A stretch of 64,000 nucleotides of DNA from assembly GCA_023078555.1 (NCBI GenBank), contig CM041197.1, positions 6,655,810 to 6,719,809 on the forward strand, in the 5' to 3' direction. Source of the DNA: Ulva prolifera (taxonomy: Eukaryota > Chlorophyta > Ulvophyceae > Ulvales > Ulvaceae). Numbering within the stretch: the stretch's first letter is position 1; each line of letters begins with the position of its first letter. The position numbers and the translations under genes were made by a program. Below the pieces are notes generated by a model. The model ran no database searches and was not told the origin of the DNA. It saw only the letters and a program-made list of their open reading frames with translations. This document shows, in pieces, positions 27,801 through 64,000 of the stretch.

Positions 27801-27979
27801 TGAAAAGTGCACAGGTGCTGAACATGTAATGTATTGGCTCATCGAGAAAAGATTTTCCACACGTCGAAGTTGAGTGCTTTACTACAACACACTCTACACA
27901 TAACATAGGTGTGTGTGACCTTTGCGCACGTCCGTTAAGAGCAACATGCTTCCCTGTCACCTTGAAGTCGAAAAGTTAA

Positions 27980-36879: not shown

Positions 36880-39800
36880 AGCGCAACCGGCTTCCATGTC
36901 ACCTAGTAGTAGAAAAGTTCACACGTGCTGAATATGTAATGTATTGGCTCATCGAGAAAAGATTTTCCACACGTCGAAGTTGAGTGCTTTACTACAACAC
37001 ACTTAACACAAGCCATAGGCGTGTGTGACCTTTGCGCACGTCCGTTGACGAGCAACCGGCTTCCCTGTCACCTAGTAGTTGAAAAGTTCACAGGCGCTGT
37101 ATATGGCATGCATTTACTCAGCAAGAAGAGAATTCGACACATTGGATCAGAGCACTACTCTAGAAAACACTTATCACAAGACATAGGTGTGTGTGACCTT
37201 TGCGCACGTCCGTTAAGAGCAACATGCTTCCCTGTCACCTTGAAGTCGAAAAGTTCACAGGTGCTGAATATGTAATGTATTGGCTCATCGAGAAAAGATT
37301 TTCCACACGTAAAAGTTGAGTGCTTTACTACAACACACTTAACACAAGCCATAGGTGTGTGTGACCTTTGCGCACGTCCATTGACGAGCAACCTGCTTCC
37401 CTGTCACCTAGTAGTTGAAAAGTTCACAGGCGCTGTATATGGCATGCATTTACTCAGCGAGAAGAGAATTCGACACATTGGATCAGAGCACTACTCTAGA
37501 AAACACTTATCACAAGACATAGGTGTGTGTGACCTTTGCGCACGTCCGTTAAGAGCAACATGCTTCCCTGTCACCTTGAAGTCGAAAAGTTCACAGGTGA
37601 TGAATATGTAATGTATTGGCTCATCTAGAAAGGTTTTTCCACACGTTGAAGTTGATTGCTTTACTACAACACACGCTACACATGACATTGGTGTGTGGGA
37701 CCTTTGCGCACGTCCGTTAAAGCGCAACCGGCTTCCCTCTCACCTAAAAGTTGAAAAGTTCACAGGTGCTGAATATGTAATGTATTGGCTCATCGAGAAA
37801 ATGTTTTCCACACGTCGAAGTTGAGTGCTTTACTACAACACACTCTACACATGACATAGGTGTGTGTGACCTTTGCGCACGTCCGTTAAAGCGCAACCGG
37901 CTTCCCTGTCACCTAAAAGTTAAAAAGTTCACAGGTGCTGAATATGTAATGTATTGGCTCATCGAGAAAATATTTTCCACACGTCGAAGTTGAGTGCTTT
38001 ACTACAACACACTCTACACATGACATAGGTGTGTGGGACCTTTGCGCACGTCCGTTAAAGCGCAACCGGCTTCCCTGTCACCTAAAAGTTGAAAAGTTCA
38101 CAGGTGCTGAATATGTAATGTATTGGCTCATCGAGAAAATATTTTCCACACGTCGAAGTTGAGTGCTTTACTACAACACACTCTACACATGACATAGGTG
38201 TGTGTGACCTTTGCGCACGTCCGTTAAAGCGCAACCGGCTTCCCTGTCACCTAAAAGTTAAAAAGTTCACAGGTGCTGAATATGTAATGTATTGGCTCAT
38301 CGTGAAAAGATTTTCCACACGTCGAAGTTGAGTGCTTTACTACAACACACTCTACACATGACATAGGTGTGTGTGACCTTTGCGCACGTCCGTTAAAGCG
38401 CAACCGGCTTCCCTGTCACCTAAAAGTTGAAAAGTTCACAGGTGCTGAATATGTAATGTATTGGCTCATCGAGAAAAGATTTTCCACACGTCGAAGTTGA
38501 GTGCTTTACTACAACACACTTAACACAAGCCATAGGCGTGTGTGACCTTTGCGCACGTCCGTTGACGAGCAACCGGCTTCCCTGTCACCTAGTAGTTGAA
38601 AAGTTCACAGGCGCTGTATATGGCATGCATTTACTCAGCAAGAAGAGAATTCGACACATTGGATCAGAGCACTACTCTAGAAAACACTTATCACAAGACA
38701 TAGGTGTGTGTGACCTTTGCGCACGTCCGTTAAGAGCAACATGCTTCCCTGTCACCTTGAAGTCGAAAAGTTCACAGGTGCTGAATATGTAATGTATTGG
38801 CTCATCGAGAAAAGATTTTCCACACGTAAAAGTTGAGTGCTTTACTACAACACACTTAACACAAGCCATAGGTGTGTGTGACCTTTGCGCACGTCCATTG
38901 ACGAGCAACCGGCTTCCCTGTCACCTAGTAGTTGAAAAGTTCACAGGCGCTGTATATGGCATGCATTTACTCAGCGAGAAGAGAATTCGACACATTGGAT
39001 CAGAGCACTACTCTAGAAAACACTTATCACAAGACATAGGTGTGTGTGACCTTTGCGCACGTCCGTTAAGAGCAACATGCTTCCCTGTCACCTTGAAGTC
39101 GAAAAGTTCACAGGTGATGAATATGTAATGTATTGGCTCATCTAGAAAGGTTTTTCCACACGTTGAAGTTGATTGCTTTACTACAACACACGCTACACAT
39201 GACATTGGTGTGTGGGACCTTTGCGCACGTCCGTTAAAGCGCAACCGGCTTCCCTCTCACCTAAAAGTTGAAAAGTTCACAGGTGCTGAATATGTAATGT
39301 ATTGGCTCATCGAGAAAAGATTTTCCACACGTCGAAGTTGAGTGCTTTACTGCAACACACTCTACACATGACATAGGTGTGTGTGACCTTTGCGCACGTC
39401 CGTTAAAGCGCAACCGGCTTCCCTGTCACCTAAAAGTTGAAAAGTTCACAGGTGCTGAATATGTAATGTATTGGCTCATCGAGAAAAGATTTTCCACACG
39501 TCGAAGTTGAGTGCTTTACTACAACACACTTAACACAAGCCATAGGCGTGTGTGACCTTTGCGCACGTCCGTTAAGAGCAACATGCTTCCCTGTCACCTT
39601 GAAGTCGAAAAGTTCACAGGTGCTGAATATGTAATGTATTGGCTCATCGAGAAAAGATTTTCCACACGTAAAAGTTGAGTGCTTTACTACAACACACTTA
39701 ACACAAGCCATAGGTGTGTGTGACCTTTGCGCACGTCCATTGACGAGCAACCTGCTTCCCTGTCACCTAGTAGTTGAAAAGTTCACAGGCGCTGTATATG

Positions 39801-42800
39801 GCATGCATTTACTCAGCGAGAAGAGAATTCGACACATTGGATCAGAGCACTACTCTAGAAAACACTTATCACAAGACATAGGTGTGTGTGACCTTTGCGC
39901 ACGTCCGTTAAGAGCAACATGCTTCCCTGTCACCTTGAAGTCGAAAAGTTCACAGGTGATGAATATGTAATGTATTGGCTCATCTAGAAAGGTTTTTCCA
40001 CACGTTGAAGTTGATTGCTTTACTACAACACACGCTACACATGACATTGGTGTGTGGGACCTTTGCGCACGTCCGTTAAAGCGCAACCGGCTTCCCTCTC
40101 ACCTAAAAGTTGAAAAGTTCACAGGTGCTGAATATGTAATGTATTGGCTCATCGAGAAAATATTTTCCACACGTCGAAGTTGAGTGCTTTACTACAACAC
40201 ACTCTACACATGACATAGGTGTGTGTGACCTTTGCGCACGTCCGTTAAAGCGCAACCGGCTTCCCTGTCACCTAAAAGTTAAAAAGGTCACAGGTGCTGA
40301 ATATGTAATGTATTGGCTCATCGAGAAAATATTTTCCACACGTCGAAGTTGAGTGCTTTACTACAACACACTCTACACATGACATAGGTGTGTGGGACCT
40401 TTGCGCACGTCCGTTAAAGCGCAACCGGCTTCCCTGTCACCTAAAAGTTGAAAAGTTCACAGGTGCTGAATATGTAATGTATTGGCTCATCGAGAAAATA
40501 TTTTCCACACGTCGAAGTTGAGTGCTTTACTACAACACACTCTACACATGACATAGGTGTGTGTGACCTTTGCGCACGTCCGTTAAAGCGCAACCGGCTT
40601 CCCTGTCACCTAAAAGTTAAAAAGTTCACAGGTGCTGAATATGTAATGTATTGGCTCATCGTGAAAAGATTTTCCACACGTCGAAGTTGAGTGCTTTACT
40701 ACAACACACTCTACACATGACATAGGTGTGTGTGACCTTTGCGCACGTCCGTTAAAGCGCAACCGGCTTCCATGTCACCTAGTAGTAGAAAAGTTCACAC
40801 GTGCTGAATATGTAATGTATTGGCTCATCGAGAAAAGATTTTCCACACGTCGAAGTTGAGTGCTTTACTACAACACACTTAACACAAGCCATAGGCGTGT
40901 GTGACCTTTGCGCACGTCCGTTGACGAGCAACCGGCTTCCCTGTCACCTAGTAGTTGAAAAGTTCACAGGCGCTGTATATGGCATGCATTTACTCAGCAA
41001 GAAGAGAATTCGACACATTGGATCAGAGCACTACTCTAGAAAACACTTATCACAAGACATAGGTGTGTGTGACCTTTGCGCACGTCCGTTAAGAGCAACA
41101 TGCTTCCCTGTCACCTTGAAGTCGAAAAGTTCACAGGTGCTGAATATGTAATGTATTGGCTCATCGAGAAAAGATTTTCCACACGTAAAAGTTGAGTGCT
41201 TTACTACAACACACTTAACACAAGCCATAGGTGTGTGTGACCTTTGCGCACGTCCATTGACGAGCAACCTGCTTCCCTGTCACCTAGTAGTTGAAAAGTT
41301 CACAGGCGCTGTATATGGCATGCATTTACTCAGCGAGAAGAGAATTCGACACATTGGATCAGAGCACTACTCTAGAAAACACTTATCACAAGACATAGGT
41401 GTGTGTGACCTTTGCGCACGTCCGTTAAGAGCAACATGCTTCCCTGTCACCTTGAAGTCGAAAAGTTCACAGGTGATGAATATGTAATGTATTGGCTCAT
41501 CTAGAAAGGTTTTTCCACACGTTGAAGTTGATTGCTTTACTACAACACACGCTACACATGACATTGGTGTGTGGGACCTTTGCGCACGTCCGTTAAAGCG
41601 CAACCGGCTTCCCTCTCACCTAAAAGTTGAAAAGTTCACAGGTGCTGAATATGTAATGTATTGGCTCATCGAGAAAATGTTTTCCACACTCCGAAGTTGA
41701 GTGCTTTACTACAACACACTCTACACATGACATAGGTGTGTGTGACCTTTGCGCACGTCCGTTAAAGCGCAACCGGCTTCCCTGTCACCTAAAAGTTAAA
41801 AAGTTCACAGGTGCTGAATATGTAATGTATTGGCTCATCGAGAAAATATTTTCCACACGTCGAAGTTGAGTGCTTTACTACAACACACTCTACACATGAC
41901 ATAGGTGTGTGGGACCTTTGCGCACGTCCGTTAAAGCGCAACCGGCTTCCCTGTCACCTAAAAGTTGAAAAGTTCACAGGTGCTGAATATGTAATGTATT
42001 GGCTCATCGAGAAAATATTTTCCACACGTCGAAGTTGAGTGCTTTACTACAACACACTCTACACATGACATAGGTGTGTGTGACCTTTGCGCACGTCCGT
42101 TAAAGCGCAACCGGCTTCCCTGTCACCTAAAAGTTAAAAAGTTCACAGGTGCTGAATATGTAATGTATTGGCTCATCGTGAAAAGATTTTCCACACGTCG
42201 AAGTTGAGTGCTTTACTACAACACACTCTACACATGACATAGGTGTGTGTGACCTTTGCGCACGTCCGTTAAAGCGCAACCGGCTTCCCTGTCACCTAAA
42301 AGTTGAAAAGTTCACAGGTGCTGAATATGTAATGTATTGGCTCATCGAGAAAAGATTTTCCACACGTCGAAGTTGAGTGCTTTACTACAACACACTTAAC
42401 ACAAGCCATAGGCGTGTGTGACCTTTGCGCACGTCCGTTGACGAGCAACCGGCTTCCCTGTCACCTAGTAGTTGAAAAGTTCACAGGCGCTGTATATGGC
42501 ATGCATTTACTCAGCAAGAAGAGAATTCGACACATTGGATCAGAGCACTACTCTAGAAAACACTTATCACAAGACATAGGTGTGTGTGACCTTTGCGCAC
42601 GTCCGTTAAGAGCAACATGCTTCCCTGTCACCTTGAAGTCGAAAAGTTCACAGGTGCTGAATATGTAATGTATTGGCTCATCGAGAAAAGATTTTCCACA
42701 CGTAAAAGTTGAGTGCTTTACTACAACACACTTAACACAAGCCATAGGTGTGTGTGACCTTTGCGCACGTCCATTGACGAGCAACCGGCTTCCCTGTCAC

Positions 42801-44640
42801 CTAGTAGTTGAAAAGTTCACAGGCGCTGTATATGGCATGCATTTACTCAGCGAGAAGAGAATTCGACACATTGGATCAGAGCACTACTCTAGAAAACACT
42901 TATCACAAGACATAGGTGTGTGTGACCTTTGCGCACGTCCGTTAAGAGCAACATGCTTCCCTGTCACCTTGAAGTCGAAAAGTTCACAGGTGATGAATAT
43001 GTAATGTATTGGCTCATCTAGAAAGGTTTTTCCACACGTTGAAGTTGATTGCTTTACTACAACACACGCTACACATGACATTGGTGTGTGGGACCTTTGC
43101 GCACGTCCGTTAAAGCGCAACCGGCTTCCCTCTCACCTAAAAGTTGAAAAGTTCACAGGTGCTGAATATGTAATGTATTGGCTCATCGAGAAAAGATTTT
43201 CCACACGTCGAAGTTGAGTGCTTTACTGCAACACACTCTACACATGACATAGGTGTGTGTGACCTTTGCGCACGTCCGTTAAAGCGCAACCGGCTTCCCT
43301 GTCACCTAAAAGTTGAAAAGTTCACAGGTGCTGAATATGTAATGTATTGGCTCATCGAGAAAAGATTTTCCACACGTCGAAGTTGAGTGCTTTACTACAA
43401 CACACTTAACACAAGCCATAGGCGTGTGTGACCTTTGCGCACGTCCGTTAAGAGCAACATGCTTCCCTGTCACCTTGAAGTCGAAAAGTTCACAGGTGCT
43501 GAATATGTAATGTATTGGCTCATCGAGAAAAGATTTTCCACACGTAAAAGTTGAGTGCTTTACTACAACACACTTAACACAAGCCATAGGTGTGTGTGAC
43601 CTTTGCGCACGTCCATTGACGAGCAACCTGCTTCCCTGTCACCTAGTAGTTGAAAAGTTCACAGGCGCTGTATATGGCATGCATTTACTCAGCGAGAAGA
43701 GAATTCGACACATTGGATCAGAGCACTACTCTAGAAAACACTTATCACAAGACATAGGTGTGTGTGACCTTTGCGCACGTCCGTTAAGAGCAACATGCTT
43801 CCCTGTCACCTTGAAGTCGAAAAGTTCACAGGTGATGAATATGTAATGTATTGGCTCATCTAGAAAGGTTTTTCCACACGTTGAAGTTGATTGCTTTACT
43901 ACAACACACGCTACACATGACATTGGTGTGTGGGACCTTTGCGCACGTCCGTTAAAGCGCAACCGGCTTCCCTCTCACCTAAAAGTTGAAAAGTTCACAG
44001 GTGCTGAATATGTAATGTATTGGCTCATCGAGAAAATATTTTCCACACGTCGAAGTTGAGTGCTTTACTACAACACACTCTACACATGACATAGGTGTGT
44101 GTGACCTTTGCGCACGTCCGTTAAAGCGCAACCGGCTTCCCTGTCACCTAAAAGTTAAAAAGTTCACAGGTGCTGAATATGTAATGTATTGGCTCATCGA
44201 GAAAATATTTTCCACACGTCGAAGTTGAGTGCTTTACTACAACACACTCTACACATGACATAGGTGTGTGGGACCTTTGCGCACGTCCGTTAAAGCGCAA
44301 CCGGCTTCCCTGTCACCTAAAAGTTGAAAAGTTCACAGGTGCTGAATATGTAATGTATTGGCTCATCGAGAAAATATTTTCCACACGTCGAAGTTGAGTG
44401 CTTTACTACAACACACTCTACACATGACATAGGTGTGTGTGACCTTTGCGCACGTCCGTTAAAGCGCAACCGGCTTCCCTGTCACCTAAAAGTTAAAAAG
44501 TTCACAGGTGCTGAATATGTAATGTATTGGCTCATCGTGAAAAGATTTTCCACACGTCGAAGTTGAGTGCTTTACTACAACACACTCTACACATGACATA
44601 GGTGTGTGTGACCTTTGCGCACGTCCGTTAAAGCGCAACC
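36880..44640 (+). repeat. 3876-bp (23-monomer) higher-order repeat, two copies
   Basis: The copies are about 36880-40760 and 40760-44640. Matching marks lie exactly 3876 bp apart: the variant CACCTAGTAGTAG with TTCACACGTGC (about 36900 and 40776), and GAGAAAATGTTTTCC (about 37796 and 41672). B-C pairs at 37021, 38538 and 40897 recur at 40897, 42414 and 44773. Internally the unit is a 9-monomer (1517 bp) plus a 14-monomer (2359 bp) segment; the private CATCGTGAAAAG variant recurs at about 38299, 40658, 42176 and 44535. The copies are not perfect (for example CACACTCCGAAG only at about 41686). Confidence 0.8.
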
Positions 44641-46118
44641 GGCTTCCCTGTCACCTAAAAGTTGAAAAGTTCACAGGTGCTGAATATGTAATGTATTGGC
44701 TCATCGAGAAAAGATTTTCCACACGTCGAAGTTGAGTGCTTTACTACAACACACTTAACACAAGCCATAGGCGTGTGTGACCTTTGCGCACGTCCGTTGA
44801 CGAGCAACCGGCTTCCCTGTCACCTAGTAGTTGAAAAGTTCACAGGCGCTGTATATGGCATGCATTTACTCAGCAAGAAGAGAATTCGACACATTGGATC
44901 AGAGCACTACTCTAGAAAACACTTATCACAAGACATAGGTGTGTGTGACCTTTGCGCACGTCCGTTAAGAGCAACATGCTTCCCTGTCACCTTGAAGTCG
45001 AAAAGTTCACAGGTGCTGAATATGTAATGTATTGGCTCATCGAGAAAAGATTTTCCACACGTAAAAGTTGAGTGCTTTACTACAACACACTTAACACCTG
45101 CCATAGGTGTGTGTGACCTTTGCGCACGTCCATTGACGAGCAACCGGCTTCCCTGTCACCTAGTAGTTGAAAAGTTCACAGGCGCTGTATATGGCATGCA
45201 TTTACTCAGCGAGAAGAGAATTCGACACATTGGATCAGAGCACTACTCTAGAAAACACTTATCACAAGACATAGGTGTGTGTGACCTTTGCGCACGTCCG
45301 TTAAGAGCAACATGCTTCCCTGTCACCTTGAAGTCGAAAAGTTCACAGGTGCTGAATATGTAATGTATTGGCTCATCGAGAAAAGATTTTCCACACGTAA
45401 AAGTTGAGTGCTTTACTACAACACACTTAACACAAGCCATAGGTGTGTGTGACCTTTGCGCACGTCCATTGACGAGCAACCGGCTTCCCTGTCACCTAGT
45501 AGTTGAAAAGTTCACAGGCGCTGTATATGGCATGCATTTACTCAGCGAGAAGAGAATTCGACACATTGGATCAGAGCACTACTCTAGAAAACACTTATCA
45601 CAAGACATAGGTGTGTGTGACCTTTGCGCACGTCCGTTAAGAGCAACATGCTTCCCTGTCACCTTGAAGTCGAAAAGTTCACAGGTGATGAATATGTAAT
45701 GTATTGGCTCATCTAGAAAGGTTTTTCCACACGTTGAAGTTGATTGCTTTACTACAACACACGCTACACATGACATTGGTGTGTGGGACCTTTGCGCACG
45801 TCCGTTAAAGCGCAACCGGCTTCCCTCTCACCTAAAAGTTGAAAAGTTCACAGGTGCTGAATATGTAATGTATTGGCTCATCGAGAAAAGATTTTCCACA
45901 CGTCGAAGTTGAGTGCTTTACTGCAACACACTCTACACATGACATAGGTGTGTGTGACCTTTGCGCACGTCCGTTAAAGCGCAACCGGCTTCCCTGTCAC
46001 CTAAAAGTTGAAAAGTTCACAGGTGCTGAATATGTAATGTATTGGCTCATCGAGAAAAGATTTTCCACACGTCGAAGTTGAGTGCTTTACTACAACACAC
46101 TTAACACAAGCCATAGGC

Positions 46119-49030
46119 GTGTGTGACCTTTGCGCACGTCCGTTGACGAGCAACCGGCTTCCCTGTCACCTAGAAGTTGAAAAGTTCACAGGCGCTGTAT
46201 ATGGCATGCATTTACTCAGCAAGAAGAGAATTCGACACATTGGATCAGAGCACTACTCTAGAAAACACTTATCACAAGACATAGGTGTGTGTGACCTTTG
46301 CGCACGTCCGTTAAGAGCAACATGCTTCCCTGTCACCTTGAAGTCGAAAAGTTCACAGGTGCTGAATATGTAATGTATTGGCTCACCGAGAAAAGATTTT
46401 CCACACGTAAAAGTTGAGTGCTTTACTACAACACACTTAACACAAGCCATAGGTGTGTGTGACCTTTGCGCACGTCCATTGACGAGCAACCGGCTTCCCT
46501 GTCACCTAGTAGTTGAAAAGTTCACAGGCGCTGTATATGGCATGCATTTACTCAGCGAGAAGAGAATTCGACACATTGGATCAGAGCACTACTCTAGAAA
46601 ACACTTATCACAAGACATAGGTGTGTGTGACCTTTGCGCACGTACGTTAAGAGCAACATGCTTCCCTGTCACCTTGAAGTCGAAAAGTTCACAGGTGATG
46701 AATATGTAATGTATTGGCTCATCTAGAAAGGTTTTTCCACACGTTGAAGTTGATTGCTTTACTACAACACACGCTACACATGACATAGGTGTGTGGGACC
46801 TTTGCGCACGTCCGTTAAAGCGCAACCGGCTTCCCTCTCACCTAAAAGTTGAAAAGTTCACAGGTGCTGAATATGTAATGTATTGGCTCATCGAGAAAAT
46901 ATTTTCCACACGTCGAAGTTGAGTGCTTTACTACAACACACTCTACACATGACATAGGTGTGTGTGACCTTTGCGCACGTCCGTTAAAGCGCAACCGGCT
47001 TCCCTGTCACCTAAAAGTTGAAAAGTTCACAGGTGCTGAATATGTAATGTATTGGCTCATCGAGAAAAGATTTTCCACACGTCGAAGTTGAGTGCTTTAC
47101 TACAACACACTTAACACAAGCCATAGGCGTGTGTGACCTTTGCGCACGTCCGTTGACGAGCAACCGGCTTCCCTGTCACCTAGAAGTTGAAAAGTTCACA
47201 GGCGCTGTATATGGCATGCATTTACTCAGCAAGAAGAGAATTCGACACATTGGATCAGAGCACTACTCTAGAAAACACTTATCACAAGACATAGGTGTGT
47301 GTGACCTTTGCGCACGTCCGTTAAGAGCAACATGCTTCCCTGTCACCTTGAAGTCGAAAAGTTCACAGGTGCTGAATATGTAATGTATTGGCTCACCGAG
47401 AAAAGATTTTCCACACGTAAAAGTTGAGTGCTTTACTACAACACACTTAACACAAGCCATAGGTGTGTGTGACCTTTGCGCACGTCCATTGACGAGCAAC
47501 CGGCTTCCCTGTCACCTAGTAGTTGAAAAGTTCACAGGCGCTGTATATGGCATGCATTTACTCAGCGAGAAGAGAATTCGACACATTGGATCAGAGCACT
47601 ACTCTAGAAAACACTTATCACAAGACATAGGTGTGTGTGACCTTTGCGCACGTCCGTTAAGAGCAACATGCTTCCCTGTCACCTTGAAGTCGAAAAGTTC
47701 ACAGGTGATGAATATGTAATGTATTGGCTCATCTAGAAAGGTTTTTCCACACGTTGAAGTTGATTGCTTTACTACAACACACGCTACACATGACATAGGT
47801 GTGTGGGACCTTTGCGCACGTCCGTTAAAGCGCAACCGGCTTCCCTCTCACCTAAAAGTTGAAAAGTTCACAGGTGCTGAATATGTAATGTATTGGCTCA
47901 TCGAGAAAATATTTTCCACACGTCGAAGTTGAGTGCTTTACTACAACACACTCTACACATGACATAGGTGTGTGTGACCTTTGCGCACGTCCGTTAAAGC
48001 GCAACCGGCTTCCCTGTCACCTAAAAGTTGAAAAGTTCACAGGTGCTGAATATGTAATGTATTGGCTCATCGAGAAAAGATTTTCCACACGTCGAAGTTG
48101 AGTGCTTTACTACAACACACTTAACACAAGCCATAGGCGTGTGTGACCTTTGCGCACGTCCGTTGACGAGCAACCGGCTTCCCTGTCACCTAGAAGTTGA
48201 AAAGTTCACAGGCGCTGTATATGGCATGCATTTACTCAGCAAGAAGAGAATTCGACACATTGGATCAGAGCACTACTCTAGAAAACACTTATCACAAGAC
48301 ATAGGTGTGTGTGACCTTTGCGCACGTCCGTTAAGAGCAACATGCTTCCCTGTCACCTTGAAGTCGAAAAGTTCACAGGTGCTGAATATGTAATGTATTG
48401 GCTCACCGAGAAAAGATTTTCCACACGTAAAAGTTGAGTGCTTTACTACAACACACTTAACACAAGCCATAGGTGTGTGTGACCTTTGCGCACGTCCATT
48501 GACGAGCAACCGGCTTCCCTGTCACCTAGTAGTTGAAAAGTTCACAGGCGCTGTATATGGCATGCATTTACTCAGCGAGAAGAGAATTCGACACATTGGA
48601 TCAGAGCACTACTCTAGAAAACACTTATCACAAGACATAGGTGTGTGTGACCTTTGCGCACGTCCGTTAAGAGCAACATGCTTCCCTGTCACCTTGAAGT
48701 CGAAAAGTTCACAGGTGATGAATATGTAATGTATTGGCTCATCTAGAAAGGTTTTTCCACACGTTGAAGTTGATTGCTTTACTACAACACACGCTACACA
48801 TGACATAGGTGTGTGGGACCTTTGCGCACGTCCGTTAAAGCGCAACCGGCTTCCCTCTCACCTTAAAGTTGAAAAGTTCACAGGTGCTGAATATGTAATG
48901 TATTGGCTCATCGAGAAAATATTTTCCACACGTCGAAGTTGAGTGCTTTACTACAACACACTCTACACATGACATAGGTGTGTGTGACCTTTGCGCACGT
49001 CCGTTAAAGCGCAACCGGCTTCCCTGTCAC
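46119..49030 (+). repeat. 1010-bp (6-monomer) higher-order repeat, about three copies
   Basis: B units with the variant CACCTAGAAGTTG start at 46119, 47129 and 48139, exactly 1010 bp apart (two of 169 and four of 168). Each is followed by C with GGCTCACCGAG, then another B-C pair and A units. The third copy diverges near 49037, where GTTAAAAAG replaces GTTGAAAAG. Confidence 0.8.
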
Positions 49031-52000
49031 CTAAAAGTTAAAAAGTTCACAGGTGCTGAATATGTAATGTATTGGCTCATCGAGAAAAGATTTTCCACAC
49101 GTCGACGTTGAGTGCTTTACTACAACGCTCTCTTCACATGACATAGGTGTGTGTGACCTTTGCGCACGTCCGTTAAAGCGCAACCGGCTTCCCTGTCACC
49201 TAGAAGTTGAAAAGTTCACAGGTTCTGAATATGTAATGTATTGGCTCATCGAGAAAAGATTTTCCACACGTCGAAGTTGAGTGCTTTACTACAACACACT
49301 CTACACATGACATAGGTGTGTGTGACCTTTGCGCACGTCCGTTAAAGCGCAACCGGCTTCCCTGTCACCTAAAAGTTAAAAAGTTCACAGGTGCTGAATA
49401 TGTAACGTATTGGCTCATCGAGAAAATATTTTCCACACGTCGAAGTTGAGTGCTTTACTACAACACACTCTACACATGACATAGGTGTGTGGGACCTTTG
49501 CGCACGTCCGTTAAAGCGCAACCGGCTTCCCTGTCACCTAAAAGTTGAAAAGTTCACAGGTGCTGAATATGTAATGTATTGGCTCATCGAGAAAAGATTT
49601 TCCACACGTCGAAGTTGAGTGCTTTACTACAACACACTCTACACATGACATAGGTGTGTGTGACCTTTGCGCACGTCCGTTAAAGCGCAACCGGCTTCCC
49701 TGTCACCTAAAAGTTGAAAAGTTCACAGGTGCTGAATATGTAATGTATTGGCTCATCGAGAAAAGATTTTCCACACGTCGAAGTTGAGTGCTTTACTACA
49801 ACACACTTAACACAAGCCATAGGCGTGTGTGACCTTTGCGCACGTCCGTTGACGAGCAACCGGCTTCCCTGTCACCTAGAAGTTGAAAAGTTCACAGGCG
49901 CTGTATATGGCATGCATTTACTCAGCAAGAAGAGAATTCGACACATTGGATCAGAGCACTACTCTAGAAAACACTTATCACAAGACATAGGTGTGTGTGA
50001 CCTTTGCGCACGTCCGTTAAGAGCAACATGCTTCCCTGTCACCTTGAAGTCGAAAAGTTCACAGGTGCTGAATATGTAATGTATTGGCTCACCGAGAAAC
50101 GATTTTCCACACGTAAAAGTTGAGTGCTTTACTACAACACACTTAACACAAGCCATAGGTGTGTGTGACCTTTGCGCACGTCCGTTGACGAGCAACCGGC
50201 TTCCCTGTCACCTAGAAGTTGAAAAGTTCACAGGCGCTGTATATGGCATGCATTTACTCAGCTAGAAGAGAATTCGACACATTGGATCAGAGCACTACTC
50301 TAGAAAACACTTATCACAAGACATAGGTGTGTGTGACCTTTGCGCACGTCCGTTAAGAGCAACATGCTTCCCTGTCACCTTGAAGTCGAAAAGTTCACAG
50401 GTGCTGAATATGTAATGTATTGGCTCACCGAGAAAAGATTTTCCACACGTAAAAGTTGAGTGCTTTACTACAACACACTTAACACAAGCCATAGGTGTGT
50501 GTGACCTTTGCGCACGTCCATTGACGAGCAACCGGCTTCCCTGTCACCTAGTAGTTGAAAAGTTCACAGGCGCTGTATATGGCATGCATTTACTCAGCGA
50601 GAAGAGAATTCGACACATTGGATCAGAGCACTACTCTAGAAAACACTTATCACAAGACATAGGTGTGTGTGACCTTTGCGCACGTCCGTTAAGAGCAACA
50701 TGCTTCCCTGTCACCTTGAAGTCGAAAAGTTCACAGGTGATGAATATGTAATGTATTGGCTCATCTAGAAAGGTTTTTCCACACGTTGAAGTTGATTGCT
50801 TTACTACAACACACGCTACACATGACATAGGTGTGTGGGACCTTTGCGCACGTCCGTTAAAGCGCAACCGGCTTCCCTCTCACCTAAAAGTTGAAAAGTT
50901 CACAGGTGCTGAATATGTAATGTATTGGCTCATCGAGAAAATATTTTCCACACGTCGAAGTTGAGTGCTTTACTACAACACACTCTACACATGACATAGG
51001 TGTGTGTGACCTTTGCGCACGTCCGTTAAAGCGCAACCGGCTTCCCTGTCACCTAAAAGTTAAAAAGTTCACAGGTGCTGAATATGTAATGTATTGGCTC
51101 ATCGAGAAAAGATTTTCCACACGTCGACGTTGAGTGCTTTACTACAACGCTCTCTTCACATGACATAGGTGTGTGTGACCTTTGCGCACGTCCGTTAAAG
51201 CGCAACCGGCTTCCCTGTCACCTAGAAGTTGAAAAGTTCACAGGTTCTGAATATGTAATGTATTGGCTCATCGAGAAAAGATTTTCCACACGTCGAAGTT
51301 GAGTGCTTTACTACAACACACTCTACACATGACATAGGTGTGTGTGACCTTTGCGCACGTCCGTTAAAGCGCAACCGGCTTCCCTGTCACCTAAAAGTTA
51401 AAAAATTCACAGGTGCTGAATATGTAATGTATTGGCTCATCGAGAAAATATTTTCCACACGTCGAAGTTGAGTGCTTTACTACAACACACTCTACACATG
51501 ACATAGGTGTGTGGGACCTTTGCGCACGTCCGTTAAAGCGCAACCGGCTTCCCTGTCACCTAAAAGTTGAAAAGTTCACAGGTGCTGAATATGTAATGTA
51601 TTGGCTCATCGAGAAAAGATTTTCCACACGTCGAAGTTGAGTGCTTTACTACAACACACTCTACACATGACATAGGTGTGTGTGACCTTTGCGCACGTCC
51701 GTTAAAGCGCAACCGGCTTCCCTGTCACCTAAAAGTTGAAAAGTTCACAGGTGCTGAATATGTAATGTATTGGCTCATCGAGAAAAGATTTTCCACACGT
51801 CGAAGTTGAGTGCTTTACTACAACACACTTAACACAAGCCATAGGCGTGTGTGACCTTTGCGCACGTCCGTTGACGAGCAACCGGCTTCCCTGTCACCTA
51901 GTAGTTGAAAAGTTCACAGGCGCTGTATATGGCATGCATTTACTCAGCAAGAAGAGAATTCGACACATTGGATCAGAGCACTACTCTAGAAAACACTTAT

Positions 52001-52890
52001 CACAAGACATAGGTGTGTGTGACCTTTGCGCACGTCCGTTAAGAGCAACATGCTTCCCTGTCACCTTGAAGTCGAAAAGTTCACCGGTGATGAATATGTA
52101 ATGTATTGGCTCATCTAGAAAGGTTTTTCCACACGTTGAAGTTGATTGCTTTACTACAACACACGCTACACATGACATTGGTGTGTGGGACCTTTGCGCG
52201 CGTCCGTTAAAGCGCAACCGGCTTCCCTCTCACCTAAAAGTTGAAAAGTTCACAGGTGCTGAATATGTAATGTATTGGCTCATCGAGAAAATATTTTCCA
52301 CACGTCGAAGTTGAGTGCTTTACTACAACACACTCTACACATGACATAGGTGTGTGTGACCTTTGCGCACGTCCGTTAAAGCGCAACCGGCTTCCCTGTC
52401 ACCTAAAAGTTAAAAAGTTCACAGGTGCTGAATATGTAATGTATTGGCTCATCGAGAAAAGATTTTCCACACGTCGAAGTTGAGTGCTTTACTACAACAC
52501 ACTCTACACATGACATAGGTGTGTGTGACCTTTGCGCACGTCCGTTAAAGCGCAACCGGCTTCCCTGTCACCTAAAAGTTGAAAAGTTCACAGGTGCTGA
52601 ATATGTAATGTATTGGCTCATCGAGAAAAGATTTTCCACACGTCGAAGTTGAGTGCTTTACTACAACACACTTAACACAAGCCATAGGCGTGTGTGACCT
52701 TTGCGCACGTCCGTTGACGAGCAACCGGCTTCCCTGTCACCTAGTAGTTGAAAAGTTCACAGGCGCTGTATATGGCATGCATTTACTCAGCAAGAAGAGA
52801 ATTCGACACATTGGATCAGAGCACTACTCTAGAAAACACTTATCACAAGACATAGGTGTGTGTGACCTTTGCGCACGTCCGTTAAGAGCA
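48850..52890 (+). repeat. 2022-bp (12-monomer) repeat with partial second copy
   Basis: The private variant CACAGGTTCTGAATATG occurs at 49221 and 51243, exactly 2022 bp apart, with similar flanking type A units including GTCGACGTTGAG and the CGCTCTCTTCAC ending. A third occurrence of the variant at 54446 lies 19 monomers further on. Outer limits are approximate. Confidence 0.6.
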
Positions 52891-54060
52891 ACATGCTTCC
52901 CTGTCACCTTGAAGTCGAAAAGTTCACAGGTGATGGATATGTAATGTATTGGCTCATCTAGAAAGGTTTTTCCACACGTTGAAGTTGATTGCTTTACTAC
53001 AACACACGCTACACATGACATTGGTGTGTGGGACCTTTGCGCACGTCCGTTAAAGCGCAACCGGCTTCCCTCTCACCTAAAAGTTGAAAAGTTCACAGGT
53101 GCTGAATATGTAATGTATTGGCTCATCGAGAAAATATTTTCCACACGTCGAAGTTGAGTGCTTTACTACAACACACTCTACACATGACATAGGTGTGTGT
53201 GACCTTTGCGCACGTCCGTTAAAGCGCAACCGGCTTCCCTGTCACCTAAAAGTTAAAAAGTTCACAGGTGCTGAATATGTAATGTATTGGCTCATCGAGA
53301 AAAGATTTTCCACACGTCGAAGTTGAGTGCTTTACTACAACACACTCTACACATGACATAGGTGTGTGTGACCTTTGCGCACGTCCGTTAAAGCGCAACC
53401 GGCTTCCCTGTCACCTAAAAGTTGAAAAGTTCACAGGTGCTGAATATGTAATGTATTGGCTCATCGAGAAAAGATTTTCCACACGTCGAAGTTGAGTGCT
53501 TTACTACAACACACTTAACACAAGCCATAGGCGTGTGTGACCTTTGCGCACGTCCGTTGACGAGCAACCGGCTTCCCTGTCACCTAGTAGTTGAAAAGTT
53601 CACAGGCGCTGTATATGGCATGCATTTACTCAGCAAGAAGAGAATTCGACACATTGGATCAGAGCACTACTCTAGAAAACACTTATCACAAGACATAGGT
53701 GTGTGTGACCTTTGCGCACGTCCGTTAAGAGCAACATGCTTCCCTGTCACCTTGAAGTCGAAAAGTTCACAGGTGCTGAATATGTAATGTATTGGCTCAT
53801 CGAGAAAAGATTTTCCACACGTAAAAGTTGAGTGCTTTACTACAACACACTTAACACAAGCCATAGGTGTGTGTGACCTTTGCGCACGTCCATTGACGAG
53901 CAACCGGCTTCCCTATCACCTAGTAGTTGAAAAGTTCACAGGCGCTGTATATGGCATGCATTTACTCAGCGAGAAGAGAATTCGACACATTGGATCAGAG
54001 CACTACTCTAGAAAACACTTATCACAAGACATAGGTGTGTGTGACCTTTGCGCACGTCCG
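51847..54060 (+). repeat. 843-bp (5-monomer) higher-order repeat, about 2.6 copies
   Basis: B units start at 51847, 52690 and 53533, exactly 843 bp apart (three of 169 and two of 168). Each is followed by a C unit and three A units. The third copy changes after its first C, where a second B follows directly at 53869 instead of A units. Confidence 0.7.
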
Positions 54061-55217
54061 TTAAAGCGCAACCGGCTTCCCTCTCACCTAAAAGTTGAAA
54101 AGTTCACAGGTGCTGAATATGTAATGTATTGGCTCATCTAGAAAGGTTTTTCCACACGTCGAAGTTGATTGCTTTACTACAACACACGCTACACATGACA
54201 TAGGTGTGTGGGACCTTTGCGCACGTCCGTTAAGAGCAACATGCTTCCCTGTCACCTTGAAGTCGAAAAGTTCACAGGTGCTAAATATGTAATGTATTGG
54301 CTCATCGAGAAAAGTTTTTCCACACGTCGACGTTGAGTGCTTTACTACAACGCTCTCTTCACATGACATAGGTGTGTGTGACCTTTGCGCACGTCCGTTA
54401 AAGCGCAACCGGCTTCCCTGTCACCTAGAAGTTGAAAAGTTCACAGGTTCTGAATATGTAATGTATTGGCTCATCGAGAAAAGATTTTCCACACGTCGAA
54501 GTTGAGTGCTTTACTACAACACACTCTACACATGACCTAGGTGTGTGTGACCTTTGCGCACGTCCGTTAAAGCGCAACCGGCTTCCCTGTCACCTAAAAG
54601 TTGAAAAGTTCACAGGTTCTGAATATGTAATGTATTGGCTCATCGAGAAAAGATTTTCCACACGTCGAAGTTGAGTGCTTTACTACAACACACTCTACAC
54701 ATAACATAGGTGTGTGTGACCTTTGCGCACGTCCGTTAAGAGCAACATGCTTCCCTGTCACCTTGAAGTCGAAAAGTTCACAGGTGCTAAATATGTAATG
54801 TATTGGCTCATCGAGAAAAGTTTTTCCACACGTCGAAGTTGAGTGCTTTACTACAACACACTCTACACATGACATAGGTGTGTGTGACCTTTGCGCACGT
54901 CCGTTAAAGCGCAACCGGCTTCCCTGTCACCTAAAAGTTGAAAAGTTCACAGGTGCTGAATATGTAATGTATTGGCTCATCGAGAAAAGTTTTTCCACAC
55001 GTCGAAGTTGAGTGCTTTACTACAACACACTCTACACATGACATAGGTGTGTGTGACCTTTGCGCACGTCCGTTAAAGCGCAACCGGCTTCCATGTCACC
55101 TAATAGTAGAAAAGTTCACAGGTGCTGAATATGTAATGTATTGGCTCATCGAGAAAAGATTTTCCACACGTCGAAGTTGAGTGCTTTACTACAACACACT
55201 TAACACAAGCCATAGGC

Positions 55218-57103
55218 GTGTGTGACCTTTGCGCACGTCCGTTTACGAGCAACCGGCTTCCCTGTCACCTAGTAGTTGAAAAGTTCACAGGCGCTGTATA
55301 TGGCATGCATTTACTCAGCAAGAAGAGAATTCGACACATTGGATCAGAGCACTACTCTAGAAAACACTTATCACAAGACATAGGTGTGTGTGACCTTTGC
55401 GCACGTCCGTTAAGAGCAACATGCTTCCCTGTCACCTTGAAGTCGAAAAGTTCACAGGTGCTGAATATGTAATGTATTGGCTCATCGAGAAAAGATTTTC
55501 CACACGTAAAAGTTGAGTGCTTTACTACAACACACTTAACACAAGCCATAGGTGTGTGTGACCTTTGCGCACGTCCATTGACGAGCAACCGGCTTCCCTG
55601 TCACCTAGTAGTTGAAAAGTTCACAGGCGCTGTATATGGCATGCATTTACTCAGCGAGAAGAGAATTCGACACATTGGATCAGAGCACTACTCTAGAAAA
55701 CACTTATCACAAGACATAGGTGTGTGTGACCTTTGCGCACGTCCGTTAAGAGCAACATGCTTCCCTGTCACCTTGAAGTCGAAAAGTTCACAGGTGATGA
55801 ATATGTAATGTATTGGCTCATCTAGAAAGGTTTTTCCACACGTTGAAGTTGAATGCTTTACTACAACACACGCTACACATGACATTGGTGTGTGGGACCT
55901 TTGCGCACGTCCGTTAAAGCGCAACCGGCTTCCCTGTCACCTAAAAGTTGAAAAGTTCACAGGTGCTGAATATGTAATGTATTGGCTCATCGAGAAAAGT
56001 TTTTCCACACGTCGAAGTTGAGTGCTTTACTACAACACACTCTACACATGACATAGGTGTGTGTGACCTTTGCGCACGTCCGTTAAAGCGCAACCGGCTT
56101 CCATGTCACCTAGTAGTAGAAAAGTTCACAGGTGCTGAATATGTAATGTATTGGCTCATCGAGAAAAGATTTTCCACACGTCGAAGTTGAGTGCTTTACT
56201 ACAACACACTCTACACATGACATAGGTGTGTGTGACCTTTGCGCACGTCCGTTAAAGCGCAACCGGCTTCCATGTCACCTAGTAGTAGAAAAGTTCACAG
56301 GTGCTGAATATGTAATGTATTGGCTCATCGAGAAAAGATTTTCCACACGTCGAAGTTGAGTGCTTTACTACAACACACTTAACACAAGCCATAGGCGTGT
56401 GTGACCTTTGCGCACGTCCGTTGACGAGCAACCGGCTTCCCTGTCACCTAGTAGTTGAAAAGTTCACAGGCGCTGTATATGGCATGCATTTACTCAGCAA
56501 GAAGAGAATTCGACACATTGGATCAGAGCACTACTCTAGAAAACACTTATCACAAGACATAGGTGTGTGTGACCTTTGCGCACGTCCGTTAAGAGCAACA
56601 TGCTTCCCTGTCACCTTGAAGTCGAAAAGTTCACAGGTGCTGAATATGTAATGTATTGGCTCATCGAGAAAAGATTTTCCACACGTAAAAGTTGAGTGCT
56701 TTACTACAACACACTTAACACAAGCCATAGGTGTGTGTGACCTTTGCGCACGTCCATTGACGAGCAACCGGCTTCCCTGTCACCTAGTAGTTGAAAAGTT
56801 CACAGGCGCTGTATATGGCATGCATTTACTCAGCGAGAAGAGAATTCGACACATTGGATCAGAGCACTACTCTAGAAAACACTTATCACAAGACATAGGT
56901 GTGTGTGACCTTTGCGCACGTCCGTTAAGAGCAACATGCTTCCCTGTCACCTTGAAGTCGAAAAGTTCACAGGTGATGAATATGTAATGTATTGGCTCAT
57001 CTAGAAAGGTTTTTCCACACGTTGAAGTTGATTGCTTTACTACAACACACGCTACACATGACATTGGTGTGTGGGACCTTTGCGCACGTCCGTTAAAGCG
57101 CAA
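55218..57103 (+). repeat. 1179-bp (7-monomer) repeat, second copy cut by the transposon
   Basis: B-C-B-C tetramers start at 55218 and 56397, 1179 bp apart (three of 169 and four of 168), with A units carrying CCATGTCACCTAGTAGTAG between. The second copy ends at 57103 inside a type A-like unit, after TTAAAGCGCAA, where the transposon starts. Confidence 0.7.
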
Positions 57104-57120
57104 CACTACCAGCACTGAGT
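57104..57120 (+). repeat. Left terminal inverted repeat of the CACTA element
   Basis: CACTACCAGCACTGAGT starts directly after the satellite bases GCGCAA. The CACTA start is diagnostic for the family. The length of the inverted repeat cannot be measured without the other end, which should finish in TGCTGGTAGTG. Confidence 0.8.
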
Positions 57121-57121
57121 T

Positions 57122-57372
57122 GTCCTTATGCATGCCCTATCCGAGCATCACGGTGAGGCAGCCATATACTGTCCTTACAATCACCTTAAGGCCAACATAG
57201 TCCTTACAGTGGGGACCAGGCCGGCACAAGGATCTTAAGGACTCTCGGTTGTGTCCCTATGGTAAGGACTAAATCGGGCTTGGCTTTGGTCGTATGGAGC
57301 TGGTGTGTAAGGACACGGTAATGATCAACCCGGGACAGGCTGCGCATCTGACTGCTAGGCCAACACAAGGAT
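57122..57372. repeat. Subterminal repeats of the CACTA element
   Basis: GTCCTTA occurs at 57122, 57171 and 57200. Its reverse complement TAAGGAC occurs at 57236, 57263 and 57308: three forward followed by three inverted within 193 bp. A second motif of the type GGCC(AA/GG)CA occurs at 57190, 57219 and 57358; the last two share CACAAGGAT. In studied CACTA elements such arrays near the ends are binding sites for the element's DNA-binding protein. Here that function is inferred from position and arrangement. Confidence 0.75.
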
Positions 57373-58853: not shown

Positions 58854-61800
58854 ATGGAGCGAGAGGCTGCAGTGACAGCTGCGCTGGGGTTGCCTGCTTT
58901 CGATGCAAGGGAACTTCAGGGTACTTGGAAACTTGTGTGCAAGTTTTGTGAAGAGACAAGAGCGAATTGCGCCCCTGGTACATCGAACCGGGTCAACAGA
59001 GGAATTGTCGCAAGCACCAAGGCAGCGAAGCGTCATCTAGCTTCTTGCCATCGCACCAGTGGCAATCCGGAACGGAATTGTTCCCACGACGATCAAGCAC
59101 TTTCAGGACAGCAGCATAGAAGAGGACCAGCCCCTCCAAATTCTGTAGGTTGTGCGGTTGTGGTTGATAGCCAAGCCCACGTTGCGATTGGGTCCGAACC
59201 CGGGGGCGTGCTACTTCAAGTTGACCAAAATGCATATGCCAGAGAGCCATCAGGCGGTAACGGCTCAAGCGCCCCGACAACAGGTTCGTCTGCGCATGCC
59301 CAATCTAACAGTGTCGCAGCTTCAGACAGTGCCGGGCCTGCTCCAAAATCTCCAGCCTCGCAATCGATTGACAGTATCGCAGCTACCGTCGATTCCCAAC
59401 CAAGCTATGCTTATTCTACTAGCGAGGATGAACGAGTTAGAGATGATGCTGGCAAGGCAGACGAAGGTTCAATTGATGGACCCATTGCTAGTGATGGTGA
59501 GGGGGCGTTCTGTTCCGGTGTTCCACAGTACGGGCTGGAGTCCGACACTGAATCCCAAGGCGATTACAGCGATGACAGTGACAGCCGCCTCGGGCCTCTG
59601 CCAAGAATGCCGCGCAAGCAGTCAGGCGCGTGGCTCAGGTCAAGACGGCTAGAACCTCTTGCCACCAACCACGAGAGGTCCGTGCTACAAGCCGCCTACA
59701 ATCAGGTCGAGATTAAGAAGCATGGAGCCAGCAACACTGTTCTAGAGATGATCGCGGAAGACAATTACCGTCTGCTATCTGGTTTCAAGGGAGAACATAA
59801 ACCACATGAGATTCTCTTGCCCCACTCCATGCACATGGTGAAACAAGTGCTAGGCACAGAGGACGCGGCCAAGTATGAATTCGGGTGGTGCAGCGAGTGC
59901 GCCATGCGCTTTGAAGTTGATCCCGACAAGGCCACCAAGACCAGGGAGCAGTTGCTGCAAGAGACTTGTCCACGATGCGGCTATCACAAGTATGAGGTAT
60001 GTCCTCTGATCTTATTAATAAGAACATCTTGTTTACATTGTTGACATGATTATGAGTGTATCCACCAGAGTCACATCTTTATGTGCCTTGTGTTGATGTG
60101 CCTTGTACATTATCCTATTATGGTGTCCCGCGGCGAATTCGAATTTCATCCTATGTGCATATGCAACAGCTGCGCATTTTTGCTCCCATACATAATTTGT
60201 TTTCTATTGGTCCAGGCTGCGTCAGCAAGAACCGTAAAGTTCAACCGAAGAGGATGGGATTTCACAATGGAGGCCGTAATTAAGTGGTTTCACGAGGACG
60301 AAGCTTTTCGTGAGGCAGTGCTTGCGGCCCATCCTTTGGACTTCACTGATGCCGATGGCGTGGCCGGGTCCCTGTACCTCAATATGCTCAACGAGGATTG
60401 CAAAAATGTTCTCTCGAAGCGTACCGATGCTTTTGGTGCAGGAATTTATGGCATGGGTGTGATCATGTTCGAACCTATGCCACACTGTGGGTGTCAAACC
60501 GCGTGGGGCACAATGATGCAGTACTTCAATGCGTTGGCACCGATTGCTAGTTGCATGCCCTCAATCCATATCTCTACCATGTACTCGACATGTGGTCGAA
60601 CCACGTATCGTCTTAACACCACTGAGTACCGGTAATGCTAGCGTTGCCTCACCTATTCTACGCATGTGCAGGAGCTGATGGTGGCAACATCTTCAAGCTA
60701 AGAATTGGCAGTACTACCATTGTCGGCGTGAGACGCTACGATCTACATGTCGCAAAAAATGCCAGCTGCCTATCATGGCAGCCTCTCATCATTCTGGAAG
60801 GTCCTACGGAGCCGTCTCAATTGGAAGACATTTTGAAGCCAACTGTGGACTTCTTTGTCAACCACGACCCAGGTACATCCTCTTATCGAGGATGCCCCAA
60901 TATCCAATATCTTATACACACAGTTTTCAGTCGGTAGTAGCTGAGTGACCAATGTGTTGAAAAGGGGGTCAATTGACTTCGTGGATCCTGCCATGCGCAG
61001 GTCGGGAGGGCACAGAACCGTTTGAATTCACAATTTTCCCAGGAGGAAGGGAGATGCGCATACAACACTGGCCTGTGCTTGCTTTCGTGGAAGGAGACCT
61101 AATGATGATGTATAAACTCATGTTGACGCTGCCACACAGTGCAGTTGAGGCTTGCCCACGTTGCGCTCTTCAGGGGAAGTCCATCAAGAATGCCATGAGG
61201 TGAGGTTCAGCGGTGACGTGGCCGTGCAAACTTGTATGCCACCTGTGCAGATCCTGGCTATACACTAGTTGCCACACCAACCAGTGCACCTCAAGAGTGC
61301 ATTTTTGGAGGATCCTAGGCACACAGTGATGTGACATGTGCTTGTAGGTTTCCGTACGAGACGAATGTACCTCGAAAAATGCCCGCCACTAAAGATGCAA
61401 AGCGGATCCCGGACATTCACAAGAGGGACCACGTAGCTCGTCAGCTGGGTGTCCCCGCTGGGTACGCAGGGGAGGATCCGCCGGTCTCACGCTCACAACT
61501 ACCACCATGCCATGCAGAGTCTTTGCGGAACGGTGCCCGTCTCACCGATGATGAAGCTGATTGGGACGACACCGAAGAGTTAAAGTACACTGCGTACGAG
61601 ATGCATGAACGCGCGCAAAGTGTGCAAGATCAGTGGGACAAGTCCCTGAGGAATTTGTCGCCGCCTCTGCACCAACAAGATCCTGAAGCTCGCAAAAAGT
61701 CTTGGAAGAAGCTCAAGAGTGATGCAGAAAAGGTTCAAACGGAGACTGGCCTACGTGGGATGCCAGGGTATAGCAGGCTCAGTTACTTCAGGTGCGTGCG

Positions 61801-63649
61801 TGAATCACTGGAAGCCATGAGTGTCGGAAGACACCCATCATGATCAAGGACACGCGTACGTCTTGTAGGTATGAACATTTTTTCCACTTTGCGTTGGCGC
61901 ATCTACTGTTGTACGGCATCGTCCGGGATTTCTGGAATGTGTGGCTTCGCCCAGAAGACCCAAAACCAAAGGCTGATGGATCCAAACCAAAACGAAGAAA
62001 GAAACATCGACTCCACGGAAACAAGTACGTTCTTCCTAAGTACATCCGGGAGGTCATCAAGAGACGGGCAGCCAAGATGCACTGGACAGCACAAATGAAG
62101 AAGCGCAGCGCTGATGTACTCGGGTATGATGACAACACCGTTTCTCTAGGGCGTGCATAGTGACGAATCACCACCGGTGTCACCCTAGTGCGTCTATTTG
62201 ACTTGGATTTTGCGCTGCAGGAGTAGGTCTACTTGGACAATGGAGGAGTACATGACCTTCGTAGAAACGTGCTCGCCATTCCTCCTATTCGAGCTTCCCT
62301 GGAAGGATGAAGATTCTGCGGTGAAAGAAATGTTTGAACTTCAGTGGGGCAGCCTTCGCCGGGCGGTAATGTTTTGCCTACGCCAGCAGCATACAGAGCA
62401 CCATACTCTCAAGCGTCTGGCCCAAGCCCGAGAGGACTTTGAGACATACGCCTTTGCTGCCCAGCAGGTGTGGTGTTGCCGTTGTCCGTGAAGAGAGAGA
62501 GATTTGTTCCTCATGTATACATATACATGAGATGTACTGGCCGATGCACTGCAGGCTTTTCATGGCTTGGTGTTGACGACCGCCAAACTACATCATTCAG
62601 TGGTGCATGTCATCGACCAGCTCTGTTGTCAAGGTCCCGGATCTCTGTACACCGAGTATTGGATTGAACGCATGATCTGGTATCTGAAGTTGCACTTGAA
62701 AGATCGAGTCAAGGATAATGGTGAAGTTACGTTTGTGAACGACCATTTGCTCATGGTCTCTGCTCAGTCATGCCGGTGCATGTACCCAGAACACTGTTTG
62801 ACAATTGAGGAGAGGCGTGAGAAGCCATCTGCCGTGGCCTTCCCCGAGTATGATGTCTCTTCTGAAGACGTCTTGTTATTAGGCCCCTCGAACAAAAGAG
62901 GCCTGACCGAAGAGCAGGAGCTATGTGTCATTCAACAGCTTCCAGGGTTACTTAGAGTGGAAGGCGAATCTCGCAAATGGTACAGAGACCGCGGGTGGCC
63001 TGCGATTCATGACTTCGTTATGCATCGGATGCACAAGAAGAACAGATTCATGCTTGATAAGTATATGCAGGCCTCGCTTCCGTCGATGGATGTGGTCACT
63101 TGCAATGATGATTGCAGGCATGTAGTCACGGACAACAGATGGGTGTTTGTGGGGTACACGTATGATGATAATACCGAATGCCCTTGTGTAGCTCAGGTGC
63201 AAGCGTTTGTCCGTGTGCGGACCAGTAACGGGGCTTCCAAAGCGTTTGATCCCCGAGGGTGTGTCCACAGAGAAGAGGTGGACCAATACATTGTCCCGTC
63301 CGACATTCCGGGGAAGTCTATCCCCGCCCAGCCTCTTCGTATGGCAATTTGCAAGCTATGGGCAGCTGATATCCTAGATTGCGATGCCATTGGCAGCCCC
63401 GATCGTCAGCCTGGTAGCGTCCCAGACTTACTGAAGGTGCATCACATGGGTGACACCGAAGCCAACCAACTACCGCCATCTGCGCGGCGCCGGAGTGGTA
63501 CAAGATGCTACTTTGGATTGAATCTAGTTAATTTATCTGAAGTGTGGAGCCAGCTGGTTCCGTCTCAAACTTTTCAAAATGATCTAGCCAGAGGTGGAAC
63601 TCGAGAAAGTCAAGTCTTCATGACTTGTTCAAAGTTATCAGGAAAGTAA
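58854..63649 (+). CDS. CACTA transposase (BED-like finger + Tnp2-like core + DUF4218-like region), 8 exons
   Basis: The predicted exons are 58854-59996, 60216-60456, 60672-60872, 61001-61199, 61348-61791, 61869-62123, 62221-62467 and 62555-63649. All seven introns are GT-AG and keep the frame, giving about 1274 residues. The enzyme should cut the element's ends and move it by DDE chemistry in the nucleus. A BED-like zinc finger comes first (C29, C32, H61, H66), then a Ser/Gly/acidic low-complexity stretch (about 70-260) and a zinc ribbon (C346, C349, C372, C375). The Tnp2-like core has ADGGNIFK (D464), LEGPTEPSQLEDILKPTVDF (about 503-522) and EGDLMMMYK (D561) followed by ACPRC. HLLLYGIVRDFW (about 754) resembles the family's conserved His region. 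The C-terminal part has GPGSLYTEYWIERMIWYLK (E948), like DUF4218. An in-frame TAG at 58845 supports the ATG. D464 and D561 are the likely catalytic Asp residues; the third acidic residue is uncertain. The intron 2 donor could also be 60436, and the 3' end may be spliced further. Confidence 0.85.
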
Positions 63650-64000
63650 TAACCACAGTTTGTAATTTAGAGTTTCTATTCGTACTGATCTCGGCTGTAT
63701 GGGCCATTGCTTCCGTCGCCACATGGTGTACTATGCTTTTGCACATGCGCATTCAAACATCGGCAGTGGATGGATGGATCCTCGATCTGTCTTTTGCAGA
63801 AACGAGTCACGTTGAAATGTGCATGGGAATTGGGGTTGCCTGTGTGCGGTGCACCATGGTGGCCCCGCAGTTTGAAGCGGCCTACCGGTCATCCAAGCTG
63901 AGAGCCACAGGCCAGCTACACCTGTGACATGAACTTTCAGGTGCACCCCAGCTGACCTCAATTCCCACACTATTCGTGAGTTGGTATCAAGCTGTGATGG
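63650..64000. other. Downstream of the transposase stop; no gene assigned
   Basis: A frame open to 63927 on the plus strand has no ATG near its beginning and shows a hydrophobic run (LFVLISAVWAIASVA) that I do not recognise. Two good splice acceptors, CTGTCTTTTGCAG (ending 63799) and GAACTTTCAG (ending 63940), lie here. This may therefore be an intron before a further transposase exon, or part of a second element gene. No right terminal repeat or return to satellite is seen. Confidence 0.4.

Follow-up and report, generated by a model that had tools for sequence, protein, structure and literature searches.

A recently inserted CACTA-type transposon flanked by a 21-bp repeat in a mid-chromosome satellite array of Ulva prolifera

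A 3-bp duplication is stated as the rule for CACTA elements (PMC4938662), and such elements are recorded in rice centromeric DNA, at Cen8 (PMC4387472); the density of pvCACTA1 of common bean is lower in centromeric regions than elsewhere (PMC4938662). Athila is described in the centromeric satellite of Arabidopsis (PMC12477314), and five somatic transpositions into centromeric satellite have been reported in the same plant (PMC12312487). LINEs are found at centromeres in Chlamydomonas (PMC8226300), and Jozin of Chenopodium is a CACTA element with a satellite or tandem repeat array inside it (PMC8978399).

The locus analyzed here lies in a stretch of 64,000 nucleotides of Ulva prolifera (C2:6655810-6719809; hereafter the window), whose positions 1-57103 form a single 169-bp satellite array. 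The array continues through position 57103, ending in GCGCAA, and is replaced from 57104 by the element (CACTACCAGCACTGAGTTGTCCTTA), confirming the satellite-element junction proposed in a preliminary description of this DNA. Of the occurrences of GTTAAAGCGCAA within the window, 150 continue with CCGGCT and a single one, that at the joint, with CACTAC. TRF places the end of the array at 57104 because the first C of the element equals the next base of the satellite. Reading beyond the right edge of the window revealed the predicted right end TGCTGGTAGTG, showing that the element is 13,040 bp long and has CACTA...TAGTG termini. Its right end, at C2:6725952, is an exact inverted repeat of the first 25 bases, so that 5'-CACTA...TAGTG-3' lies within an exact 25-bp terminal inverted repeat. 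The features of the locus are as follows.

1..57103, + strand: array of the 169-bp satellite preceding the element, its monomers 168 or 169 bp long and of several classes, from TRF
57083..57103, + strand: left copy of the 21-bp repeat, CGCACGTCCGTTAAAGCGCAA
57104..64000, + strand: CACTA-type element, first 6,897 of its 13,040 bp, continuing to C2:6725952
57104..57128, + strand: left terminal inverted repeat, 25 bp, matching the right end exactly
57122..57314, both orientations: left subterminal repeats, six GTCCTTA/TAAGGAC motifs at element positions 19, 68, 97, 133, 160 and 205
63763..64000, + strand: first part of the 344-bp tandem repeat inside the element, which has 6.2 units and runs past the window
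C2:6725953-6725973, outside the window: right copy of the 21-bp repeat, abutting the element

The element holds 17 copies of the motif GTCCTTA/TAAGGAC, with 11 outermost at the two ends, 6 in the internal 344-bp repeat and none elsewhere; the element thus carries a short subterminal motif in both orientations. The internal repeat spans element positions 6660-8788 with one TAAGGAC per unit, and it comprises 6.17 units in the focal copy versus 2.17-5.17 in six other long copies. The repeat might be a binding site for the protein that also binds the element ends.

A gene model of eight exons, made by eye and joined by seven GT-AG introns, reads 1,319 amino acids without a stop, in agreement with the apparently undamaged coding region, there called a transposase, of the earlier description.

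58854..59996, + strand: exon 1 (model), weak DUF7560 match
60216..60631, + strand: exon 2 (model)
60712..60872, + strand: exon 3 (model)
61001..61199, + strand: exon 4 (model)
61348..61791, + strand: exon 5 (model)
61869..62123, + strand: exon 6 (model)
62221..62467, + strand: exon 7 (model)
62555..63649, + strand: exon 8 (model), sub-threshold DUF4218 match

A Pfam search with the spliced protein and the exon frames revealed no transposase model above the cut-off. PF02992 had no match in the spliced protein, nor in a search of the genome; as the 14 control genomes of that search gave no match either, the negative result for the genome carries little information. The matches to DUF4218 (exon-8 frame, E 0.028 and 14.7 bits; spliced protein, E 0.13 and 12.6 bits; cut-off 27) and of the spliced protein to DUF7560 (E 0.0017) were sub-threshold. 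The stretch EGDLMMM...HSAVEACPRC may resemble a conserved part of CACTA transposases. Membership of the CACTA group, as a predicted assignment, is based on the ends, the target duplication habit of the family and the subterminal repeats.

The 25-bp end was searched for in 88.9 Mb of genome sequence (44 contigs), allowing up to 2 mismatches, and was found at 63 places, compared with none for the reversed control, indicating that its recurrence is not due to chance. By our own pairing these ends form 17 two-ended elements and 29 single ends, and 3 of the 63 start with CGCTA or CGGTA instead of CACTA. Six other long copies, of 11.7-12.7 kb, differ from the focal copy by 7, 10, 14, 33, 36 and 44 substitutions in about 10.9 kb with the internal repeat excluded, a distance of 0.06-0.40%. 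The nearest, at C5:7791575, differs by 7 substitutions in 10,917 bp, supporting the recent insertion suggested earlier; five private substitutions were found in the focal copy and none in the C5:7791575 copy, and the predicted proteins of the two are identical. Five of the seven long copies have an open gene model, whereas one contains an internal stop and another a frame shift. The junction, the ends and these near-identical relatives together bear out the preliminary description of a recent CACTA insertion in mid-monomer. Elsewhere in the genome, seven family ends lie within about 35 kb at C4:6502772-6538097, two of them bounding a full-length copy and two a 2.9-kb relative. A 2.9-kb relative with shared flanks occurs at C2:3800448-3803370, C3:3329039-3331961 and C3:8274201-8277123, one locus being reversed; to judge from these flanks, its insertion seems to have been multiplied as part of a larger repeat. 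The genome also contains chlorophyll a/b-binding genes (38 matches), one of which matches 103 distinct light-harvesting sequences of solved structure at E up to 1e-30.

The target duplications of the family were determined for the 16 non-focal elements with both ends read, which represent 14 independent insertions when the three with shared flanks are counted once. An exact 3-bp duplication, as usual for CACTA elements, was found in 12 of these 14 (TGC, CTG, AGT, CAT, TCC, ATG, CAA, AGG, TGA, GTG, CGA and ATA). The remaining two insertions show GTA/TAC (C5:7791575), perhaps a duplication of TA only, 2 bp, and TCA/TCG (the three flank-sharing loci). At the focal copy the 3-bp duplication is absent: the left flank (...TTTGCGCACGTCCGTTAAAGCGCAA) ends in CAA and the right flank (CGCACGTCCGTTAAAGCGCAACCGGC...) begins with CGC, which rules out CAA, the target duplication suggested earlier. 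The right flank starts with CGCACGTCCGTTAAAGCGCAACCGG, a copy of the 21 bp with which the left flank closes, in the place where CAACCGG had been expected. Since 12 of the 14 relatives have a 3-bp duplication, the 21-bp joint of the focal copy is unusual within its own family. A literature search on CACTA elements in centromeric satellite and on atypical or long CACTA duplications retrieved no 21-bp case, and such a case may exist in print; to our knowledge, no 21-bp duplication at a CACTA element has been described.

In a tandem array any difference in phase between the two flanks mimics a duplication, and the 21 bp alone are thus not proof of a single step. The flanks were joined and compared with the contiguous array. 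Joined with one 21-mer they matched it with 4 mismatches and no gap over 1,000 bp in total; with both 21-mers kept a gap was required. Controls at the same phase were 150 contiguous pieces and 150 random chimeras, the latter drawn from across all monomers and so a weaker test against a chimera of like monomers. With 300 bp on each side, 93/150 contiguous pieces and 3/150 chimeras were as close as the joined flanks, and with 500 bp 86/150 and 4/150. With 1,000 bp on each side, 35 differences and one gap separated the joined flanks from their best match, and 77/150 contiguous pieces and 9/150 chimeras were as close. Since the joined flanks match contiguous array and few chimeras do, the 21-bp duplication probably arose with the insertion. 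The array matches extend 2 bases into the right end of the element and 1 base into the left, and this overlap would fit use in an end-joining step.

We consider it somewhat more probable than the alternatives taken together that a CACTA-type cut-and-paste element inserted recently into the C2 satellite and that 21 bp were duplicated at integration or repair. An element closest in sequence to the C5:7791575 copy would have entered the C2 array within a monomer of class A, moved by the encoded protein, its putative transposase; the joints at its two ends are exact (CACTA...TAGTG). Either the integration itself or its completion by repair would have duplicated 21 bp of the monomer instead of the 3 bp usual for the family, presumably in one step, whether through a 21-nt stagger or through capture of the excised element at a staggered break with subsequent filling of the gaps. 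A single insertion is favored because of the terminal inverted repeat, the subterminal repeats, the near-identical relatives, the 3-bp duplications of the family, the contiguous-looking joined flanks, the regular monomers of the flanking array and the overlaps of the ends with the array. It is weakened by the 3-bp rule for CACTA elements, by the phase ambiguity of a tandem array, by the limited power of the chimera control and its outcome at 1,000 bp per side, by the lack of a Pfam transposase match above cut-off and by a joint known from the assembly only.

An origin in two steps is the best of the alternatives and still unlikely: an ordinary insertion with a 3-bp duplication, of CAA if read at the right end and of CGC if read at the left, would have been followed by the templated addition beside one end of 18 bp from a neighboring monomer, copied during failed excision or break repair. 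The length divides as 3 + 18, the letters fit both CAA and CGC, 3-bp duplications are the habit of the family and an active element is expected to cause terminal breaks. However, two events would be needed in a young copy with only five private substitutions. Moreover, all of the 457 monomers counted in the flanking array are 167-171 bp long, indicating that no other 18-21-bp duplication is present among them. The array was read over the 57.1 kb that the window contains and over about 22.4 kb past the right end of the element.

Recombination between two copies that had entered the array at different phases, each leaving one flank, would account for the missing 3-bp duplication, and the internal repeat of the focal copy, the longest of the seven (6.17 units versus 2.17-5.17), could be a product of unequal exchange. 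On the other hand, the joined flanks look contiguous, only 4/150 random chimeras being as close, and among the 63 family ends listed none besides those of the focal element lies in C2 5.4-6.9 Mb, making this origin quite improbable. An assembly error at the right junction, conceivable in near-identical repeats since tandem arrays are difficult to assemble and the joint is read from the assembly, is given very little weight, because the element is complete at both ends and the joint of another transposon in this array (C2:6746327-6749793) is clean, without a phase shift. The single insertion with duplication of 21 bp remains our preferred reading. Its extension to a general mode, in which CACTA-type elements could enter satellite by capture into broken repeats, with duplications of about 20 bp and joints unlike those of insertions of the same family into unique DNA, is a speculation that we regard as very unlikely.

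The same 169-bp satellite continues for 20.4 kb to the right of the element, after C2:6725952. Among the matches listed, it is located in the middle of C2, at 5.48-5.55 and 6.44-6.86 Mb of 12.5 Mb, with one place on C8 and none on C1. A 22-mer satellite core had 3,190 exact matches in the genome, all forward and none reverse, on C2 only among the matches listed; a looser pattern gave 1,678 matches, likewise all on one strand. The restriction of matches to a single strand suggests, as far as the matches listed go, that few chromosomes carry the array, and the mid-chromosome position on C2 fits a candidate centromere. From the at least 3,190 cores we calculate that the satellite makes up about 0.54 Mb, or about 0.6%, of the genome.

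A preference of the family for satellite had also been proposed. The flanks of all 63 family ends were tabulated, with only about 200 bp of flank read for 45 of them, and the two that lie in satellite are both those of the focal element, which does not support a preference. Given the satellite share of about 0.6%, we calculate that about 0.28 satellite insertions are expected among at most 46, and that the chance of at least one among 46 is about 0.24. No satellite enrichment is shown, and a weak enrichment is still compatible with these numbers; the landing of the focal element in satellite looks incidental. The preliminary description therefore stands as regards the CACTA ends, the recent insertion and the open gene model, but not as regards the CAA duplication and the satellite preference.

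The second DNA transposon of the C2 array is 3.47 kb long, with ends CACAGGCCAGATGCC / CACAGGCCAGATGCCAGACTG, an AA duplication and no shift in the array phase. Other paired places of its family have 2 bp common to the flanks in five of six cases (CC, AG, AC, AG and AA); in the sixth the ends are 21 kb apart and share 3 bp (GCA). This family seems to duplicate 2 bp. The second transposon was rejected as a sign of CACTA-like targeting of the array, as its end pattern occurs at 23 places of which only its own two are in C2 5.4-6.9 Mb; no satellite was found at the 12 ends of the six other paired places (about 40 bp of flank each). An LTR-like end, TGTTGTAATGGCCAAG, also breaks the satellite array at C2:6751855. 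Its pattern occurs at 138 places; the matches listed are scattered over the chromosomes, and several of them form pairs about 9.04 kb apart. The second transposon and the LTR-like end indicate that several kinds of element enter the C2 satellite.

The locus offers a DNA transposon that is young, seemingly complete and datable within a satellite array, in which near-identical monomers act as paralogous empty sites and allow the joint to be read exactly. One insertion is not enough to call the family satellite-targeting, and no bias of that kind is seen at the flanks of the other family ends. Apart from its 21-bp joint, a minor anomaly, the element looks like an ordinary family member.

Compared with CACTA (En/Spm) elements, the focal element is alike in its CACTA...TAGTG ends, its 25-bp terminal inverted repeat and its subterminal motif in two orientations, as well as in having shorter relatives with the same ends and a family in which 12 of 14 non-focal insertions carry 3-bp duplications. 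It differs in its 21-bp repeat, where 3 bp would be usual, and in a predicted protein that has no PF02992 match and matches DUF4218 only below threshold. The sparser occurrence of pvCACTA1 in centromeric regions of common bean agrees with the lack of preference seen here. The rice Cen8 and common bean cases concern plant centromeres, whereas the site described here is a tandem satellite at what is a candidate centromere only. As in Jozin, a tandem repeat array lies within the CACTA element; the unit here is 344 bp long, is present in 2.17-6.17 copies in the seven elements and carries TAAGGAC.
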